A stretch of 64,000 nucleotides of DNA from Kitasatospora sp. CB01950 (GTDB lineage: Bacteria > Actinomycetota > Actinomycetes > Streptomycetales > Streptomycetaceae). Location: positions 234,419 to 298,418 of the forward strand of contig NZ_LISX01000001.1 in NCBI RefSeq assembly GCF_001905465.1. The letters run 5' to 3'. Shown here one piece after another: positions 6,817 through 15,918 of the stretch. The notes below the pieces were generated by a model. That model made no database searches. It saw only the letters and a list, made by a program, of their open reading frames with translations, and was not told the origin of the DNA. The position numbers and the translations under genes are program-made. Position 1 is the stretch's first letter. Each line of letters starts with the position of its first letter.

Positions 6817-7288
6817 TCGTTCTGCCGGCGGCCCGAGCCCGGTCCGGTCGGTCCGGGGCGTCGCAGGCGGCGAGCTTGCGGAGATCCGAATCGTGCTCGA
6901 ACAAATTGGCGGAGAACTGTGCGGCGGCATCGCTGCCGCAGGGCCGGACCGCGGCGAACCCGCTATTGGTGCGTGTGGAATCAATGAACGCACCGGTCGA
7001 ATCTACTGATAAACACACCAATTCCGACACGCTGGCCTGACTGTCAGTCAAGTGCTCGACGTCGACGCCCGATTGATGCCTGCTTGGGCGAGTTGACGCC
7101 CTGCTCAGCGGGTATCCCCATGCTGCCGAACGAGTGGCCGCCGATCGGGTGGTGTCGGGCAAATTGACCAGGTGTCGCGGTATGACCGAAACCAGATCGT
7201 GATTCCCTTTTGTCTGATCGTCATGACCATTCGGGGCATGGCATCGGACCGCGAATTCGGCGGACGAAGATACCGAGAGGAGAGCCGG
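6817..7288. other. Gene-free upstream region of the surface protein gene
   Basis: About 470 bases without a supported gene; the open frames here have no start site or codon pattern like their neighbours. The region is less GC-rich than its surroundings. It holds a perfect palindrome TGACTGTCAGTCA at 7038-7050 and a TTGACC at 7164, but I cannot pair the latter with a -10. It probably carries the promoter of the gene at 7289. Confidence 0.5.
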
Positions 7289-10200
7289 ATGTGCCGACAG
7301 TTCCTCCACCGGGCCCCGGCCCCCGACGCCCGCCCGGCCGACCGTGACCGGCCCGGACCCCGGATCGGCCGGACCACCACCGCCCTGATCGCCACCGGGC
7401 TGCTCACCGGCCTCGGCACCCCGCCGGCGGTCGCCCAGCAGTCGCCCGACAGCTGGTCCGCCGAGCGGCGCGCCCAGCTGCCGTCCGGGCTGGCCGTCCA
7501 GTTCGACTGGGAGGCCGCCCCCGGGGTGGGCGTCGAGGCCGCGCCCGGCAAGCTCGCCGACCGGGTGGCCGGCGCCGCCTACAGCGACGGCATCCGCCCC
7601 GGCGACCCGGCCGAGACCTTCCGCGCCACGGAGGAACATCCGCACGCGGACGGTTCCTGGCACCCGCTCGGCACCCTGCGGCTCTCCTTCTCCCACCCGG
7701 TGCGCAACCCCCGCCTTCACGTCAGCGGCCTGACGGGGCTGGCCACCGGCAAGAACGGCACCACCGGCACCAGCACCCGGCTGACGGTCGCCGGCGGCAG
7801 CCCGGCCGCGCCCGCCCTGGCCGGCCGCACCGCCTGGGCCGGCTGGACGGTCGGCCCCGCCGAACTCGCCCCCGCCGAGGGCGGCGCCCGCGACGGCGAC
7901 GCCGACGGCACCGGCACCCTCGAACTGACCGGCACCGTCAGCACCGTCGATCTGCGCGTCGACCGCCGCTCCACCGCTCGGGACGGCTCCACCACCCCGC
8001 CCGAGGCCCTCCGCCCGGCCTGGACGGTCACCCTGGACGAGGGCCTGGGCAGCGCCCCGCAGGACTACGGCAACGCCTCCCACCTGGTCTCCGACCTGTT
8101 CCTCGGTCAGGACGCCGCCCCGTCCGCCACCCGCACCCGGCCCGACCTGGCCCAGTCCGTCGAGCAGCCGCTGCTGCCCGGCCCGGCCGGGTCCGGGCCG
8201 CCCGCCGCCGACGCCGGCCCGCTCGTGCCGAGCGTGGAGACCGACGGCGGGGCGAGCCGCCGCAGTCCCTGGGCCAACCCGGCGCAGCCCCGGCCCCGGC
8301 CCGGCCGGGCGGACTACCGGGGGGCCGACCCGAGCCTCACGTTCCCGGCCGAGGCCACCGCCGGGAGCACCTACCGGGTGGAGGTGCCGGTCAGCGCGGG
8401 CGGCGGCCCCGCAGTCCTGGCCGGCTGGATCGACTTCGACCACAACGGGCGGTTCGACCCCGAGGAGCGGGTGCAGGCCGAGGTCCCGGCGGGGGCGCGC
8501 AGCGCCGCGCTGGAGTGGCAGGTCCCGTCCGACGCGGCGAGCGGCGACACCTGGGTCCGGCTGCGGCTGGCCCGCAGCGGCTCCCAACTCGCCACCGCCG
8601 ACGGCTTCGCCGACTCCGGGCAGGTCGTCGACCAGCGCGTCGCGGTGACGGTCGTCCCCGCCGCCCCCGGGCCGGAGATCGCGCTGCCCATTCCGGGCAC
8701 CGTCACGGGCGAGGTGCGTCCGGAGTTCCGCGGCGACGGCGCACTCGCCGGGGCGGGCATCGCCGTCCAGGAGAACGGCTCCGCGCTGTGCACTGCGCAG
8801 GTCGGCAACGACGGCGGCTGGAACTGCCGTCCCGAGGGCGCGCTCGGCGAGGGCGCCCACACCCTGGTACTGGCGGAGACCGGCCGCGGCGGCGTGCTGC
8901 ACGGCGACCCGTTCCGGCTGACCGTGAAGACCGCCGCCCCGACCGCGCCCGTCCTCACCCTGCCCGCCTACAGCAACGACCCGGGGCTGCTGGTCACCGG
9001 CCTCGGCGAGCCGGGCTCCACCGTCACGGTCTCCACGGACGGCGGGGCGGAGGACATCGACCTGTGCTCCACCGGCGTCGCCGCCGACGGCAGTTGGTCC
9101 TGCCTGCCGGTGGAGAACCTGCCCGACGGCGACCACCGGCTCACCCCGCACGCCCGCGATGCGGCCGGCAACCGCTCCGACGGCAAGACCGTCGGGCTGA
9201 CGGTGGACACCGCCGCGCCCGACAAGCCGCAGCTCGTCTCGCCGGTCGCGGGTGAACTCCTGCACACCGTCCGGCCGGTGATCAGCGGCCGCGCCGAGCC
9301 CGGTTCCACCGTCACCGTCACCGCCGGGCAGAGCCGCGGCGAACGCGCCACCGTGTGCAGCGCCGTCACGGCGGCCGACGGCAGCTGGTCCTGCACCGCC
9401 ACCCACGACCTGACGGGCGGTGACGTCACGCTGATCGCCACCGCCACCGACCCGGCGGGCAACGGCACGGCGGGCGACCCGGTCGCGGTCCGGGTGCCCG
9501 GTGCACCGGCCGGCAGCGGCAGCACCGCCCCGACGACGCCAGCCCCGACGGCGTCGCCGAGCGCACCGGTCCCGTCCGCCACCTCCTCGCCGACCTCCAC
9601 GGCCACCACGGTCCGGCCGAGCGCACCGGCCCCGACGGGCACACCGTCCGTGCCGTCCGTGCCGTCCGTGCCGTCCGTGCCGTCGGCCCAGAGCCCGGCC
9701 GCGACCGGTCCGTCCGCCTCCGCTGCCGTCTCCGCCCCGGTGTCGGCCCCGGCGAGTGCGGTGCCCTCGGTGCTGCCGGTCGTGGTGCCGACGGAGAGCC
9801 GGAGGCCGTCCGCTCCGGCCGCCCCCGCGGTGCAGGAGCCGGACGAGCTGGAGGTGCCGTTGCCGCCCTTCCTGGAAGAGGTGGTGACGACCGATCAGTC
9901 CGTCTTCGCGGCCCGCCCCGTGACGTCGGAGGGCGCCCCGGAGCGCCAGGTGCCCGCGGCGACGGGCACGCCGGCGGCGAGCCCCACGCCGTCCGGGGCG
10001 GCGCCGACGGCCGAGGTGTCGAGCCCGACCCCGGAGCCGGCCGCTGCCGATGCGACGGTCCTGCTCACGCCGTCGGACACCACGGACACCACGGCAGCCT
10101 CGGCCGCGTCGTCCGGTGCGGCGGCGGCCGACGAGGCCGTCCGGGAGCGGACGTTGGCCGCGCCGCCGCCGCCGGGCGGGGTGGCGGCGGTCGAGCGTCG

Positions 10201-10318
10201 GGCGGCGGCGACCGGGTGGCGCGGTCTGGCCTGTGGGGCGCTGCTGATCGCGGCGGGCTTCGGGCTGTTGGCGCGCCGGGTGCTCGGCGGTCGGAGGCGG
10301 CGCACCCGCCGTCACTGA
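7289..10318 (+). CDS. Large secreted, membrane-anchored surface protein (GEVED and Ig-like repeats)
   Basis: A 1009-residue exported protein. An N-terminal signal (hydrophobic about 28-48, cleavage near AVAQQ) precedes a lectin- or CshA-like region that includes SFSHPVRNPRLHVSGL. A GEVED-type module follows (about 355-460; AGWIDFDHNGRFDPEER). Three Ig-like modules with paired cysteines come next (about 460-735; each has a segment like AADGSWSC). Then comes a Ser/Pro/Thr-rich stalk with repeated SVP, and finally a C-terminal TM with a basic tail (CGALLIAAGFGLLA then RRRRTRRH). There is no LPXTG, so TM anchoring is likely. GAGAGGAGAG just before the ATG at 7289 fixes the start. A role in adhesion or aggregation is inferred from domain types only. 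Confidence 0.8.
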   Translation: MCRQFLHRAPAPDARPADRDRPGPRIGRTTTALIATGLLTGLGTPPAVAQQSPDSWSAERRAQLPSGLAVQFDWEAAPGVGVEAAPGKLADRVAGAAYSDGIRPGDPAETFRATEEHPHADGSWHPLGTLRLSFSHPVRNPRLHVSGLTGLATGKNGTTGTSTRLTVAGGSPAAPALAGRTAWAGWTVGPAELAPAEGGARDGDADGTGTLELTGTVSTVDLRVDRRSTARDGSTTPPEALRPAWTVTLDEGLGSAPQDYGNASHLVSDLFLGQDAAPSATRTRPDLAQSVEQPLLPGPAGSGPPAADAGPLVPSVETDGGASRRSPWANPAQPRPRPGRADYRGADPSLTFPAEATAGSTYRVEVPVSAGGGPAVLAGWIDFDHNGRFDPEERVQAEVPAGARSAALEWQVPSDAASGDTWVRLRLARSGSQLATADGFADSGQVVDQRVAVTVVPAAPGPEIALPIPGTVTGEVRPEFRGDGALAGAGIAVQENGSALCTAQVGNDGGWNCRPEGALGEGAHTLVLAETGRGGVLHGDPFRLTVKTAAPTAPVLTLPAYSNDPGLLVTGLGEPGSTVTVSTDGGAEDIDLCSTGVAADGSWSCLPVENLPDGDHRLTPHARDAAGNRSDGKTVGLTVDTAAPDKPQLVSPVAGELLHTVRPVISGRAEPGSTVTVTAGQSRGERATVCSAVTAADGSWSCTATHDLTGGDVTLIATATDPAGNGTAGDPVAVRVPGAPAGSGSTAPTTPAPTASPSAPVPSATSSPTSTATTVRPSAPAPTGTPSVPSVPSVPSVPSAQSPAATGPSASAAVSAPVSAPASAVPSVLPVVVPTESRRPSAPAAPAVQEPDELEVPLPPFLEEVVTTDQSVFAARPVTSEGAPERQVPAATGTPAASPTPSGAAPTAEVSSPTPEPAAADATVLLTPSDTTDTTAASAASSGAAAADEAVRERTLAAPPPPGGVAAVERRAAATGWRGLACGALLIAAGFGLLARRVLGGRRRRTRRH

Positions 10319-10530: not shown

Positions 10531-11766
10531 ATGGACGTCACCCGCGACTCGTCGCCGCGATCCCGTTCCTGGCCCACCCCCACCGAGCCTCCCGCCGACC
10601 CTGTCGGCGCGACCCAACTGGTCAAGGCGGTGACCAACCCGCTGATCAAGGCACCCGCACCCGCACCCGCACCGGCTCCGGAGCAGTCCGACCGGAGCGA
10701 GCCGACCCAGCAGCTCCCGGCCGTCGATCCGGCCGCCCCGGCCGGGGGCGGCGCGGCCCACCCGACGGTCTCGGACGCCGCCACCCATCGACGGCCGCCG
10801 CGCGCCGACCAGTCGCTGCGCGAGCGTCCGGCCTTCGCGCTGCCGGGCTGGCTGCCGCTGCTGGCGCTGCTGCTCGGCACCGCCGGTGTGCTGCTGGTGC
10901 TGGCCAGGGCGGGGGCGATCCCGCACCTGGACGGCCTGCCGGACGTCCGCAACGCGGCCGCGAAGGCCGACGGCGGCCGGATGGACGACCGGACGATCGC
11001 CGCCGTCAGCGCGATCGGCCTGGCGATGCTGGTGTCGCTGGCCGGGCTGCTCTCCAACCCGGGCGGCGAGACCCGGGTGCTGACCCGCTGGGGCCGCTAC
11101 CGGGGCACGGTGCGCCGCACCGGCCTGCTGTGGGTGAACCCGATGGTGCGCCGCCGCCGGGTGGACGTCCGGCTGCGGCACTGGCGCAGCGAGCCGGTGC
11201 ACGTCACCGACCGGACGGGCACGCCGCTGCTGGTGCGGGTGTTGATCGTGTGGCGGGTCAAGGACACCGCGCGGGTCACCCTGGGCATCGCCGAACATGA
11301 AACGTATCTGCGCGAGCAGGTGCAGGCCGTTCTCACCCGAACCGCCTCCGCTCTGCCGTGCGACTCCAACTCCGCCCCGGGGCCCGCGCTGCGCGACGGC
11401 CAGTGGTTCGCCGACGAGTTGACCAGGGCGCTGGCGGCGGAGACCGCCCCGGCGGGCATCGAGGTGTACTCGGTGCAGCCGCTGGCCCTGGACTACGCGC
11501 CGGAGGTCGCCGAGTCGATGCGCCGCCGCAGGCTGGCCGACCTGGACGCCGGGCTGCGGACCGTCCTGGTGGACGACGCGGTGGAGGCCGCGGCGCTCGC
11601 GGTGCGCCGCCTGGAGCGCGCCACCGCCCATGAGTTGGACGACAGCGCGCGCAGCGCCCTGATGGAGCAGCTGCTGGTCGCGTTCGTCGCCCCGGCCGGG
11701 GTGACCGCCTCGGTGCCCGCTCCGGCCGTCCGGCGGCCGAGCCGCAAGGAAGGGAAGCCCGCGTGA
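10531..11766 (+). CDS. SPFH/band-7 domain membrane protein
   Basis: A 411-residue protein. A Pro/Ala-rich cytoplasmic N-terminus with an (AP)n run (1-95) is followed by two TM segments (about 104-123, LPLLALLLGTAGVLLVLA, and 150-170, AIGLAMLVSLAGLLS). An SPFH domain spans about 175-375; NPMVRRRRVDVRL and TPLLVRVLIVWRV are typical of its entry strands. SPFH proteins form membrane microdomain or ring assemblies. The ATG at 10531 follows CTTAGGACACGTGC, which could hold either a weak SD (AGGA) or a -10 for a nearly leaderless mRNA. Its stop overlaps the start of the NlpC/P60 gene (GTGA), so the two proteins are probably made in step. Confidence 0.85.
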   Translation: MDVTRDSSPRSRSWPTPTEPPADPVGATQLVKAVTNPLIKAPAPAPAPAPEQSDRSEPTQQLPAVDPAAPAGGGAAHPTVSDAATHRRPPRADQSLRERPAFALPGWLPLLALLLGTAGVLLVLARAGAIPHLDGLPDVRNAAAKADGGRMDDRTIAAVSAIGLAMLVSLAGLLSNPGGETRVLTRWGRYRGTVRRTGLLWVNPMVRRRRVDVRLRHWRSEPVHVTDRTGTPLLVRVLIVWRVKDTARVTLGIAEHETYLREQVQAVLTRTASALPCDSNSAPGPALRDGQWFADELTRALAAETAPAGIEVYSVQPLALDYAPEVAESMRRRRLADLDAGLRTVLVDDAVEAAALAVRRLERATAHELDDSARSALMEQLLVAFVAPAGVTASVPAPAVRRPSRKEGKPA

Positions 11767-12725
11767 AGCCGACGCTCGCCTCGATATCCACCGATCCCGC
11801 TGATCTCCCCGACTGGTCGGAGGGCCCGCTGCTGGGCTTCGCCGAATCCGACGGTGCGGCGCCCTGCCGCTGCCCGCAGTGCGCCCGGCCCGCCGCCGGC
11901 TCGAAGGCCGCCGGGTCGAGGGCCGCCGAGCGGGCGGGCCGAATACACCGCGCCGTGCGCTCGACCTGTCTGGCCACCACCGTGCTGGCCGGCGCGGGAG
12001 CCGTCGGTCTGGGCCTGGGCGCGAGCACCGCGCACGCCATGCCCGCACCGTCCGGCCCCGGCTGGGACGGTCACGTCTACTGGTTCAAGAACGCGTCCGG
12101 CGAGTGGCGCTACACCAAGTGGCAGAGCGTCTACCAGGAGCGCACCGGCGGCTCCAAGGGGCAGTCGCAGTCGCAGAGTTCCGGCTCCTCGGGGGGCATC
12201 CGGCAGGGCTGGGACGGCAAGGTCTACTGGTTCAAGAACGCGGCCGGCGAGTGGCGTTACACCAGCCACTACGACGTGTACGTCTCCCGCACCGGCGGGG
12301 GCGGCTCTTCCTCTTCCTCTTCCTCTTCCTCGTCCTCTTCCTCGTCGTCGAAGCCCGCGTCGAGCGGCACCGAGGCGGCGGTGGCGTACGCGCTGGCGCA
12401 GGTCGGCAAGCCCTATGTGTGGGGCGGCAACGGGCCGAACGGCTTCGACTGTTCGGGCCTGGTCCAGCAGGCGTTCCGCCGGGCCGGGGTGTCGACCCCG
12501 AGGGTGGCCGACGATCAGTACCGGGCCAGCACCCCGATCACCGCGAAGCAGCTGAAGCGCGGCGACCTGATCTTCTGGTCCAGCAACGGCCGGGTCTCCG
12601 GCATCCACCACGTGGCGATCTACCTCGGCGACGGGACGTACGTGGAGGCCCCCCGGCCCGGCAAGGACGTGCGGGTCTCCCATCTGAACAGCGGCTACTA
12701 CCCGGACTTCTTCGGCCGTCCCTGA
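11763..12725 (+). CDS. Secreted NlpC/P60 (C40) peptidase with duplicated WFKN motif
   Basis: A 320-residue cell-wall hydrolase. A long cytoplasmic N-terminus contains C35, C37 and C40 (CRCPQC). A signal segment (about 64-92) ends AHA-MP. Two copies of a 30-residue unit (100-129 and 149-178) share GWDG, VYWFKNA, GEWRYT and RTGG. A serine tract (182-196, from a TCC/TCG microsatellite) precedes the NlpC/P60 domain (203-320), with catalytic C230 (DCSG) and H283 (HHVAIYLG). The family cleaves D-gamma-glutamyl-diamino acid bonds of peptidoglycan stem peptides. The GTG start at 11763 overlaps the SPFH stop, which supports the long N-terminus. Confidence 0.87.
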   Translation: MKPTLASISTDPADLPDWSEGPLLGFAESDGAAPCRCPQCARPAAGSKAAGSRAAERAGRIHRAVRSTCLATTVLAGAGAVGLGLGASTAHAMPAPSGPGWDGHVYWFKNASGEWRYTKWQSVYQERTGGSKGQSQSQSSGSSGGIRQGWDGKVYWFKNAAGEWRYTSHYDVYVSRTGGGGSSSSSSSSSSSSSSSKPASSGTEAAVAYALAQVGKPYVWGGNGPNGFDCSGLVQQAFRRAGVSTPRVADDQYRASTPITAKQLKRGDLIFWSSNGRVSGIHHVAIYLGDGTYVEAPRPGKDVRVSHLNSGYYPDFFGRP

Positions 12726-14095: not shown

Positions 14096-14944
14096 CTACT
14101 CGGCCGTCAGGCCTGCGCGGAGGTGGGCGAGAGTCTTGGTGAGCAGGCGGGAGACGTGCATCTGGGAGATGCCGATCTCCTCGCCGATCTGGGACTGCGT
14201 CAGGTTGCCGAAGAAGCGCAGCATGATGATGCGCCGTTCGCGGGGCGGGAGTTTGGCCAGCAGGGGCTTCAGCGACTCGCGGTACTCGACGCCTTCGAGG
14301 GCGAGGTCCTCGTAGCCGAGGCGGTCGGCGAGCGGGCCGTCGCCGCCGTCGTCCTCGCTGGGGCTGGAGTCGAGGGAGCTGGCGGTGTACGCGTTGCCGA
14401 CGGCGAGGCCCTCGACCACGTCGTCCTCGGAGACGCCGAGGTAGACGGCGAGTTCGGGGACGGTGGGGGAGCGGTCGAGCCGCTGGGAGAGTTCGTCGCC
14501 GGCCTTGGTGAGGGCGAGCCGGAGCTCCTGGAGGCGGCGCGGGACGCGCACCGACCAGCTGGTGTCGCGGAAGAAGCGCTTGATCTCGCCGACCACGGTG
14601 GGCATGGCGAAGGTGGGGAACTCGACGCCGCGGTCCGGGTCGAAGCGGTCGATGGCTTTGATCAGGCCGATGGTGCCGACCTGGACGATGTCCTCCATCG
14701 GCTCGTTGCGGCTGCGGAAACGCGCGGACGCGTACCGGACCAGCGGCAGGTTGAGCTCGATCAGGGTGTCGCGCACGTAGCCGTGCTCGGCGCTGCCGGG
14801 CTCCACCGCGGCCAGTCTGCGGAACAGCGATCGGGACAGCGTACGGGTGTCGAGTGCCCGGTCGGGGGCCTCGGCGGGTCCGGCCTGGGCCGGGATCGGT
14901 ACGACGACGGACTCGATGACCGCACTGCCCTGTTCTGTCAACAC
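14096..14944 (-). CDS. sigN: SigB/SigF-family RNA polymerase sigma factor, SigN-like
   Basis: A 282-residue group 3 sigma factor. Region 2 contains [37 protein letters not shown]. Region 3 follows [18 protein letters not shown], and region 4.2 ends [37 protein letters not shown] before the GTG at 14944 sets the start; the frame extends upstream only into non-coding DNA. The adjacent paralogue at 15061 is in the same orientation. From memory, Streptomyces coelicolor has sigN next to sigF, and the symbol rests on that synteny and on the SWSVRVPRRLQ signature. The family is usually held by anti-sigma and anti-anti-sigma proteins; none is encoded here. Confidence 0.85.
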   Translation of the reverse strand: MLTEQGSAVIESVVVPIPAQAGPAEAPDRALDTRTLSRSLFRRLAAVEPGSAEHGYVRDTLIELNLPLVRYASARFRSRNEPMEDIVQVGTIGLIKAIDRFDPDRGVEFPTFAMPTVVGEIKRFFRDTSWSVRVPRRLQELRLALTKAGDELSQRLDRSPTVPELAVYLGVSEDDVVEGLAVGNAYTASSLDSSPSEDDGGDGPLADRLGYEDLALEGVEYRESLKPLLAKLPPRERRIIMLRFFGNLTQSQIGEEIGISQMHVSRLLTKTLAHLRAGLTAE

Positions 14945-15060
14945 GCGCCCACCCCCTAGTGACTGCCTGTCGAACGGGTGCCGCGGTACGGCGGTTCCCG
15001 ACTGACGTGTCCTCCTGCTCAATACCGGATCACCGGGCCCGGCAAACCCGAACAGGCGGC

Positions 15061-15918
15061 TCACTCCTCCCAGGAGTTTCCGGTGCGCAGCCGGGTGAGG
15101 ATCCGGGACAGCAGTCGGGAGACGTGCATCTGGGACATGCCGAGTTCGGTGGAGATCTGCGACTGGGTGAGGTTGGCGAAGAACCGCAGCATGATGATCC
15201 GCCGTTCCCGTTCGGGGAGTTGGACCAGCAGGTGGCGGACCATGTCGCGGTGTTCGACGTCGGTGAGGGCGGAGTCCTCGTAGCCGAGCCGGTCGAGCAG
15301 GGCGAGTCCGCCCTCGTGTTCCTGGGCGGCTTCGAGCGAGGCGGCGTTGTAGGCGCGGCCGGCGTCCAGGCAGGCCCGGACGTCCTCCTCGGGGATGCGC
15401 AGGTTGGCGGCGATCTCGGGGACTTTCGGGACCCGGCCGTGGGTGACCGTCAGTTCTTCCATGGCGCCGCTGACCTGGACCCACAGTTCCTGGAGCCGGC
15501 GCGGGACGTGCATGGTGCGGACGTTGTCGCGGAAGTAGCGCTTGATCTCGCCGAGGATGGTGGGCAGCGCGTAGGTGGGGAACTGGACGCCGCGGGTGGG
15601 GTCGAAGCGGTCGATGGCGTTGATCAGGCCGATGGTGCCGACCTGGACGATGTCCTCCATGGGTTCGCTGCGGCTGCGGAAGCGGGTGGCGGCGTAGCGG
15701 ACCAGCGGGATGTTGATCTCGATCAGGGCGGCCCGGACCCGGGCGCGTTCGGGAGTGTCGGTCGGCAGTTCGGTGAGCCGTTCGAACAGCACCCGGGTGA
15801 GGGTCCGGACGTCGATCGTGCCGCGCGCGCCGGGGCGGCGGGCGGCCAGTTCGACCGGGTCCGTCAGCTCCTCGGCCCGGTCCTCCGGCGCACTGCTGCC
15901 CTGCGTCCGCACGGACAC
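15061..15918 (-). CDS. sigF: SigB/SigF-family RNA polymerase sigma factor, SigF-like
   Basis: A 285-residue paralogue of the neighbouring sigma factor with the same region 2, 3 and 4 layout. [31 protein letters not shown] and [17 protein letters not shown] strongly recall Streptomyces SigF, the late sporulation sigma factor. GGGAGGGG precedes the GTG at 15918. The 116-bp gap to the next gene suggests a separate promoter for each. SigF acts in maturing spores to thicken walls and make pigment (established knowledge); that role here is inferred. Confidence 0.88.

Follow-up and report, generated by a model that had tools for sequence, protein, structure and literature searches.

We report a conserved cysteine tag, F-x-E...C-x-C-x2-C, that precedes the signal peptide of several wall hydrolases of Streptomycetaceae and is linked to a gene for an SPFH membrane protein. 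With a probability of about 40%, we propose that it is a portable export-handling element of these enzymes, which would dock the precursor at the SPFH scaffold with its thiols as a metal or redox part, and that repeats called GWDG units would hold the enzyme on the wall. What interests us most is this tag, with its conserved cysteines, predicted cytosolic location, portability and tie to an SPFH gene, which was not found in the literature that we searched; the same search yielded no paper pairing CxCxxC with an n-region and a signal peptide.

The window, i.e. the whole stretch of 64,000 nucleotides that was analysed, is part of a 7.65-Mb Kitasatospora genome. Its relevant features are as follows:

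10531..11766, + strand: gene for an SPFH/Band 7 membrane protein of 411 aa (PF01145, 1.1e-21)
10849..11052, + strand: two predicted transmembrane segments of the SPFH protein, residues 107-125 and 156-174 (hydropathy)
11763..11766, + strand: 4-bp stop/start overlap, GTGA, from the SPFH gene to the hydrolase gene (sequence; homologues)
11763..12725, + strand: NlpC/P60 endopeptidase gene, type A (ORF of 320 aa, GTG start; orthologues)
11763..11966, + strand: extended, predicted cytosolic n-region of the precursor, residues 1-68 (alignments, hydropathy)
11838..11882, + strand: tag motif F26-x-E28 ... C35-x-C37-x-x-C40 (invariant F and three Cys; CxCxxC of homologues)
11967..12038, + strand: predicted signal-peptide h-region (69-87) and A90-x-A92 cleavage site (hydropathy; invariant A90/A92)
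12060..12152, + strand: GWDG unit 1, residues 100-130 (self-match, alignment)
12207..12299, + strand: GWDG unit 2, residues 149-179, predicted beta-beta-alpha minidomain (self-match, alignment, model)
12300..12365, + strand: Ser-rich linker (translation)
12405..12707, + strand: NlpC/P60 catalytic domain, PF00877, residues 215-315 (8.2e-29; invariant residues; structures)

Type A hereafter denotes SPFH-adjacent NlpC/P60 enzymes with GWDG units and the cysteine tag, type B their paralogues encoded elsewhere, without an SPFH neighbour, and type C tagged proteins with a divergent NlpC domain and peptidoglycan (PG)-binding repeats. The overlap between the SPFH and hydrolase genes, already pointed out in a preliminary description of this DNA, is 4 bp long (GTGA) and is a probable case of translational coupling. 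Just 5' of the SPFH gene, an ORF of 1048 aa (7172-10318, + strand) codes for a large repeat protein that is secreted and anchored in the membrane by its C-terminus, and two tandem adjacent genes for SigB/SigF-like sigma factors, alike, are found at 14096-15918 (- strand).

The hydrolase had been described as an NlpC/P60 peptidase with a duplicated GWDG unit, and its match to PF00877 (100.1 bits, for a Pfam cut-off of 23) agrees with the former. C230, the catalytic Cys, H283 and E295 are invariant in the alignment of its homologues and fit C383, H432 and E444 of RipA, which are mutant residues according to the titles of the structures, in order and near spacing. The model of the full-length protein is poor (pLDDT of 58), and its catalytic part matches the RipA, RipB and Cg1735 structures. 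The curated NCBIfam cut-offs were not reached for RipA (73.6 vs 625 bits), RipB (78.4 vs 335), RipC (94.6 vs 425) or RipD (69.1 vs 215). Judged from its sequence, the hydrolase is therefore not a Rip protein by these models, its scores being far below their cut-offs, and is an ordinary member of the known NlpC/P60 family. It would act as a D,L-endopeptidase like RipA and other NlpC/P60 enzymes and be exported by a Sec-type route.

Residues 69-87 form the sole hydrophobic segment of the hydrolase by hydropathy, followed by A90-x-A92, which by inspection has the form of a type I signal peptidase site. Both Ala residues are invariant in 14 divergent N-termini, and the precursor is presumably cleaved there. 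C35, C37 and C40 precede this only hydrophobic segment and are predicted to be cytosolic, as the preliminary description had it when it placed them before the signal peptide; they are also conserved. A lipoprotein was rejected, given that there is no lipobox and that the fourth Cys, C69, which opens the hydrophobic stretch at the start of the h-region, is not conserved. Tat export as a common feature was also discarded: type C proteins have RR before the h-region, and type A proteins R-A-V-R.

Before the hydrophobic stretch, M1, F26, C35, C37, C40 and R66, the last of which adjoins that stretch, are invariant in the 14 divergent N-termini. The CxCxxC motif, as part of F-x-E...C-x-C-x2-C ahead of the signal peptide, was found in 43 of 43 distinct SPFH-adjacent homologues and in 0 of 15 paralogues unlinked to SPFH (type B). 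A start codon is available at the 4-bp SPFH overlap in 37 of the 43 homologues, and in 29 of 38 by an unselected measure. Type B proteins form one clade nested among the tagged type A proteins in the tree (96/84). We thus rejected many independent tag losses in type B, and as read from these sequences the contrast between the two types is one loss. The GWDG unit was similarly rejected as the SPFH-linked element, since type B proteins, which have no SPFH neighbour, and proteins with Rpf and LysM domains (see below) keep units without the tag. Type C proteins carry the tag, lack the GWDG unit and, in Streptomyces, are encoded next to the SPFH gene. In these sequence comparisons, the SPFH gene is thus tracked by the cysteine tag and not by the GWDG unit.

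Type C proteins were found by a profile search with the n-region; they harbour F-E-E...D-C-x-C-x-G-C, a signal sequence, a divergent NlpC domain and PG-binding repeats. In Streptomyces, the type C gene is located directly 5' of the SPFH gene in 18 of 18 loci inspected (L288-L305). Tagged enzymes encoded 3' of SPFH in this genus include an M23 peptidase (L238) and two NlpC enzymes (L229 and L239). In the Streptomyces loci inspected, type C was not found in the adjoining 5' stretch where a tagged type A-like gene sits 3' of SPFH. Thus, the SPFH gene keeps a tagged neighbour, whose kind and side change. The tag is a portable element present on three enzyme architectures, NlpC/P60, PG-binding NlpC and M23. 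Many Streptomyces SPFH genes are followed on their 3' side by an LPMO gene without the tag. An AA10-type LPMO gene 3' and a tagged NlpC/PG-binding gene 5' of SPFH were seen together at L196, L201, L218-L227 and similar Streptomyces loci, and neither LPMO nor type C genes were found in the Kitasatospora SPFH flanks inspected.

The genome of the window has its own type C gene (C1:20142-21410), 225 kb from the SPFH gene. When the 1.0-Mb contig of this genome (~900 ORFs) was scanned for a start, CxCxxC and then a hydrophobic segment, only two tagged ORFs were retrieved, namely the type A and type C hydrolase genes. The preliminary description had suggested, from the gene overlap, that export or activity may be tied to a membrane microdomain. 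The genetic link to SPFH proved stronger than that overlap, as it recurs with a different tagged enzyme at the opposite flank of SPFH, and it concerns the tag rather than the unit.

We collected SPFH relatives using the SPFH domain as the query. Among the 32 Streptomyces included in both searches, 24 have both the SPFH and the tag protein (type C), 8 have neither, and 0 are discordant. This co-occurrence (Fisher 9.5e-8, phylogeny not corrected) involves neighbours on the chromosome, for which joint loss is possible. A close SPFH gene is present in 69 of 70 Kitasatospora, the exception (G003) being without type A and type C, and several members of the genus keep SPFH without type A. Decayed type A remnants were identified beside an intact SPFH gene in G001 (L385) and G062 (L387). 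At L388 (G038), too, a tagged NlpC gene has decayed and the SPFH gene beside it is intact. No tagged gene of type A or C was found in the Kitasatospora genomes G016, G034 and G053. Outside Streptomycetaceae, the part of the first-look candidates from 346 genomes of the class that was scored included no convincing full-length match to the tag, with weak partial matches near 1e-4.

The SPFH protein harbours a Band_7 domain (78.1 bits, cut-off of 23.6), with two hydrophobic segments N-terminal to it. Hydropathy and the positive-inside rule predict that the SPFH domain is cytosolic, i.e. on the side of the tag. The Streptomyces SPFH protein is 50-55% identical to that of the window over ~210 residues. 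One clade of these SPFH proteins has a single invariant Cys residue, in an LPCDS motif (22 of 22). We considered this Cys as the fourth ligand of a metal site shared with the tag and rejected it, as no strict rule emerged: LPADAF replaces LPCDS in Streptomyces SPFH proteins with a tagged partner, and LPCDS is kept in Kitasatospora that lost type A.

As for the GWDG units, the two copies of the hydrolase are identical at 23 of 31 residues and 71 of 93 bases, and among ungapped 31-residue self-matches, 300 shuffles of the unit stretch gave 12 identities at best, which bears out the duplication described earlier. Across 18 representative units, G1, D3, G4, Y7, W8, F9, G14, W16, R17, T19 and Y25 are invariant, and proteins harbour one to three copies. 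Searches of Pfam, NCBIfam, PHROGs and PDB sequences gave no match to the units, in keeping with the initial impression that they fall outside known wall-binding families. In searches with the hydrolase and the units, wall-binding Pfam families gave no match up to E = 1, and PHROGs none below E 0.05. A single unit folded alone (26 rows, 36-residue model) gave a compact beta-beta-alpha prediction with a mean pLDDT of 92.4. Comparison of this model with solved structures gave a best E of 2.0 with Foldseek and a best Z of 2.5 with VIA, the latter for an unrelated chaperonin; no PDB fold stands out, which does not by itself make the modelled fold new.

Run on Streptomycetaceae, the unit profile matched 86 of 395 genomes, in 4 of 17 genera. 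Divergent units of the form GWDxxxxVYWYQxxGxWYWTSHxxVY separate the Rpf transglycosylase domain from the LysM domain in Rpf proteins of Kitasatospora (loci L175-L183), which lack the cysteine tag, and one unit-bearing Rpf gene is found in the window's own genome (C23:711390-711461, L187). A divergent unit is also present in an M23 peptidase. Being common to NlpC/P60, M23 and Rpf wall enzymes, the unit is most simply explained as wall-targeting, and its recurrence fits the preliminary view that it is placed like a wall-binding domain. By its distribution, it is probably a wall-targeting module that would hold the enzyme on the wall; given its model, we regard it as a candidate new one, an uncurated domain absent from the family databases used.

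The mechanism that we propose is as follows. The precursor would carry a long cytosolic n-region with the tag, which signal peptidase would remove, so that the tag could act on the precursor only. The tag would dock or retain the precursor at the cytosol-facing SPFH scaffold encoded next door, in a contact to which the three thiols would contribute a metal- or redox-dependent element. The scaffold would gather or delay tagged precursors before or during export, and would thereby select the membrane site, or the moment, at which the enzyme is released. We infer the precursor-SPFH contact, the metal or redox role, wall binding and spatial control from several traits. The tag is invariant in SPFH-adjacent proteins, recurs on other enzymes, is rare in the genome, and is linked to and co-occurs with SPFH, which at the sequence level argues for docking. 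However, the type A/B contrast is one event, the second tagged gene of the window's genome is 225 kb off, some Kitasatospora have SPFH only, and the SPFH Cys is not strictly coupled, all of which argue against it.

The tag might instead be a stand-alone metal or redox export switch, for instance with Zn or oxidation folding the n-region and blocking Sec, and SPFH merely co-expressed. Three invariant Cys residues in a cytosolic segment, a second tagged gene of Kitasatospora that is not beside SPFH and the loose coupling of the LPC cysteine are consistent with such a switch. We nevertheless consider it unlikely, in view of tagged genes on opposite sides of one SPFH gene, with neighbours swapped, and of the perfect presence/absence match in the sampled Streptomyces. 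If the tag served quality control or delay by binding a general factor (SecA, SRP, chaperone or protease), the SPFH linkage would be a matter of shared regulation in a wall-growth cluster. The Streptomyces loci with SPFH, type C and LPMO genes do resemble SCO2833-2835, which the accessible part of PMC9040799 describes as clustered with cslA-glxA-cslZ. Such factors are found in all actinobacteria, yet among the candidates scored the tag was confined to Streptomycetaceae, where it follows the SPFH gene, and we regard this reading as rather improbable.

Similarly improbable in our view is an uncleaved signal, which would yield type II membrane hydrolases with a cytosolic Cys motif, stably joined to the SPFH protein in a transmembrane complex. 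It would account for the long n-region and the single hydrophobic segment, and SCO2835 is called a putative membrane protein in the part of PMC9040799 available to us, but the invariance of A-x-A at the expected site in 14 divergent sequences is that of type I signal peptidase substrates. Finally, the cysteines might be an annotation artefact 5' of the true start, as the GTG start and the unusual length of the n-region (68 residues) could suggest. Residues that are invariant across three genera and several architectures and the conserved 4-bp overlap make this highly improbable. A downstream start that removes the cysteines, envisaged in the preliminary description, is excluded, as far as sequence can do so, by the invariant F26, C35, C37 and C40 and by the CxCxxC and overlap-start counts given above.

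Docking at the SPFH scaffold remains our preferred reading. An unsolved problem is how actinobacteria that grow at their tips restrict harmful wall hydrolases to the sites of growth. A short conserved precursor motif that occurs on enzymes of the NlpC/P60, PG-binding NlpC and M23 kinds and has a genetic link to a single SPFH gene provides a specific handle. The Streptomyces SPFH gene sits in a cluster that resembles the S. coelicolor apical-glycan locus, as far as the accessible part of its description goes. Our analysis suggests that the export of wall enzymes may be steered or timed by a route not described before. In its broadest form, which we put forward tentatively and rate as doubtful, Streptomycetaceae would place a removable cytosolic cysteine tag on several unrelated wall-hydrolase precursors, to be read by a dedicated SPFH scaffold that sets where or when the enzymes exit. 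This would amount to a signal-peptide-borne addressing code, along with an undescribed 30-residue beta-beta-alpha wall-targeting domain.

Choline-binding and other aromatic repeats (CW_binding, LysM, SH3b, PG_binding_1) are short and lie beside a wall-hydrolase domain. The GWDG units resemble them by analogy, as short aromatic repeats near such a domain, but none of these families reaches E = 1 and the predicted fold of the unit is beta-beta-alpha. With RipA, RipB, RipC and Cg1735, which are peptidoglycan endopeptidases of Corynebacteriales, the Kitasatospora enzyme shares the catalytic fold, the C-H-E arrangement and the character of a secreted wall endopeptidase. Their N-terminal parts differ, that of the Kitasatospora enzyme harbouring tandem GWDG units and the predicted cytosolic CxCxxC tag. 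Export of another NlpC/P60 hydrolase, CwlA of C. difficile, is controlled from the cytoplasm by phosphorylation (PMC8262956); that control involves PrkC and not a cysteine n-region. Flotillins affect peptidoglycan synthesis in B. subtilis, according to the accessible part of PMC7360373. Unlike p-flotillin genes with an NfeD-type partner gene, the SPFH gene described here adjoins a hydrolase gene. The closest arrangement is that of SCO2833-SCO2834-SCO2835 in S. coelicolor, which code for the LPMO LpmP, an SPFH protein and a PG-binding membrane protein, are conserved next to cslA-glxA-cslZ and are presented with no mention of a cysteine tag in the part of PMC9040799 available to us. Only one paper in the literature that we searched names SCO2834 and SCO2835. 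By the description in PMC9040799, our Streptomyces loci have the matching three gene types, in order, whereas in Kitasatospora the neighbour of the SPFH gene is the GWDG-containing NlpC/P60 enzyme, on the 3' side.
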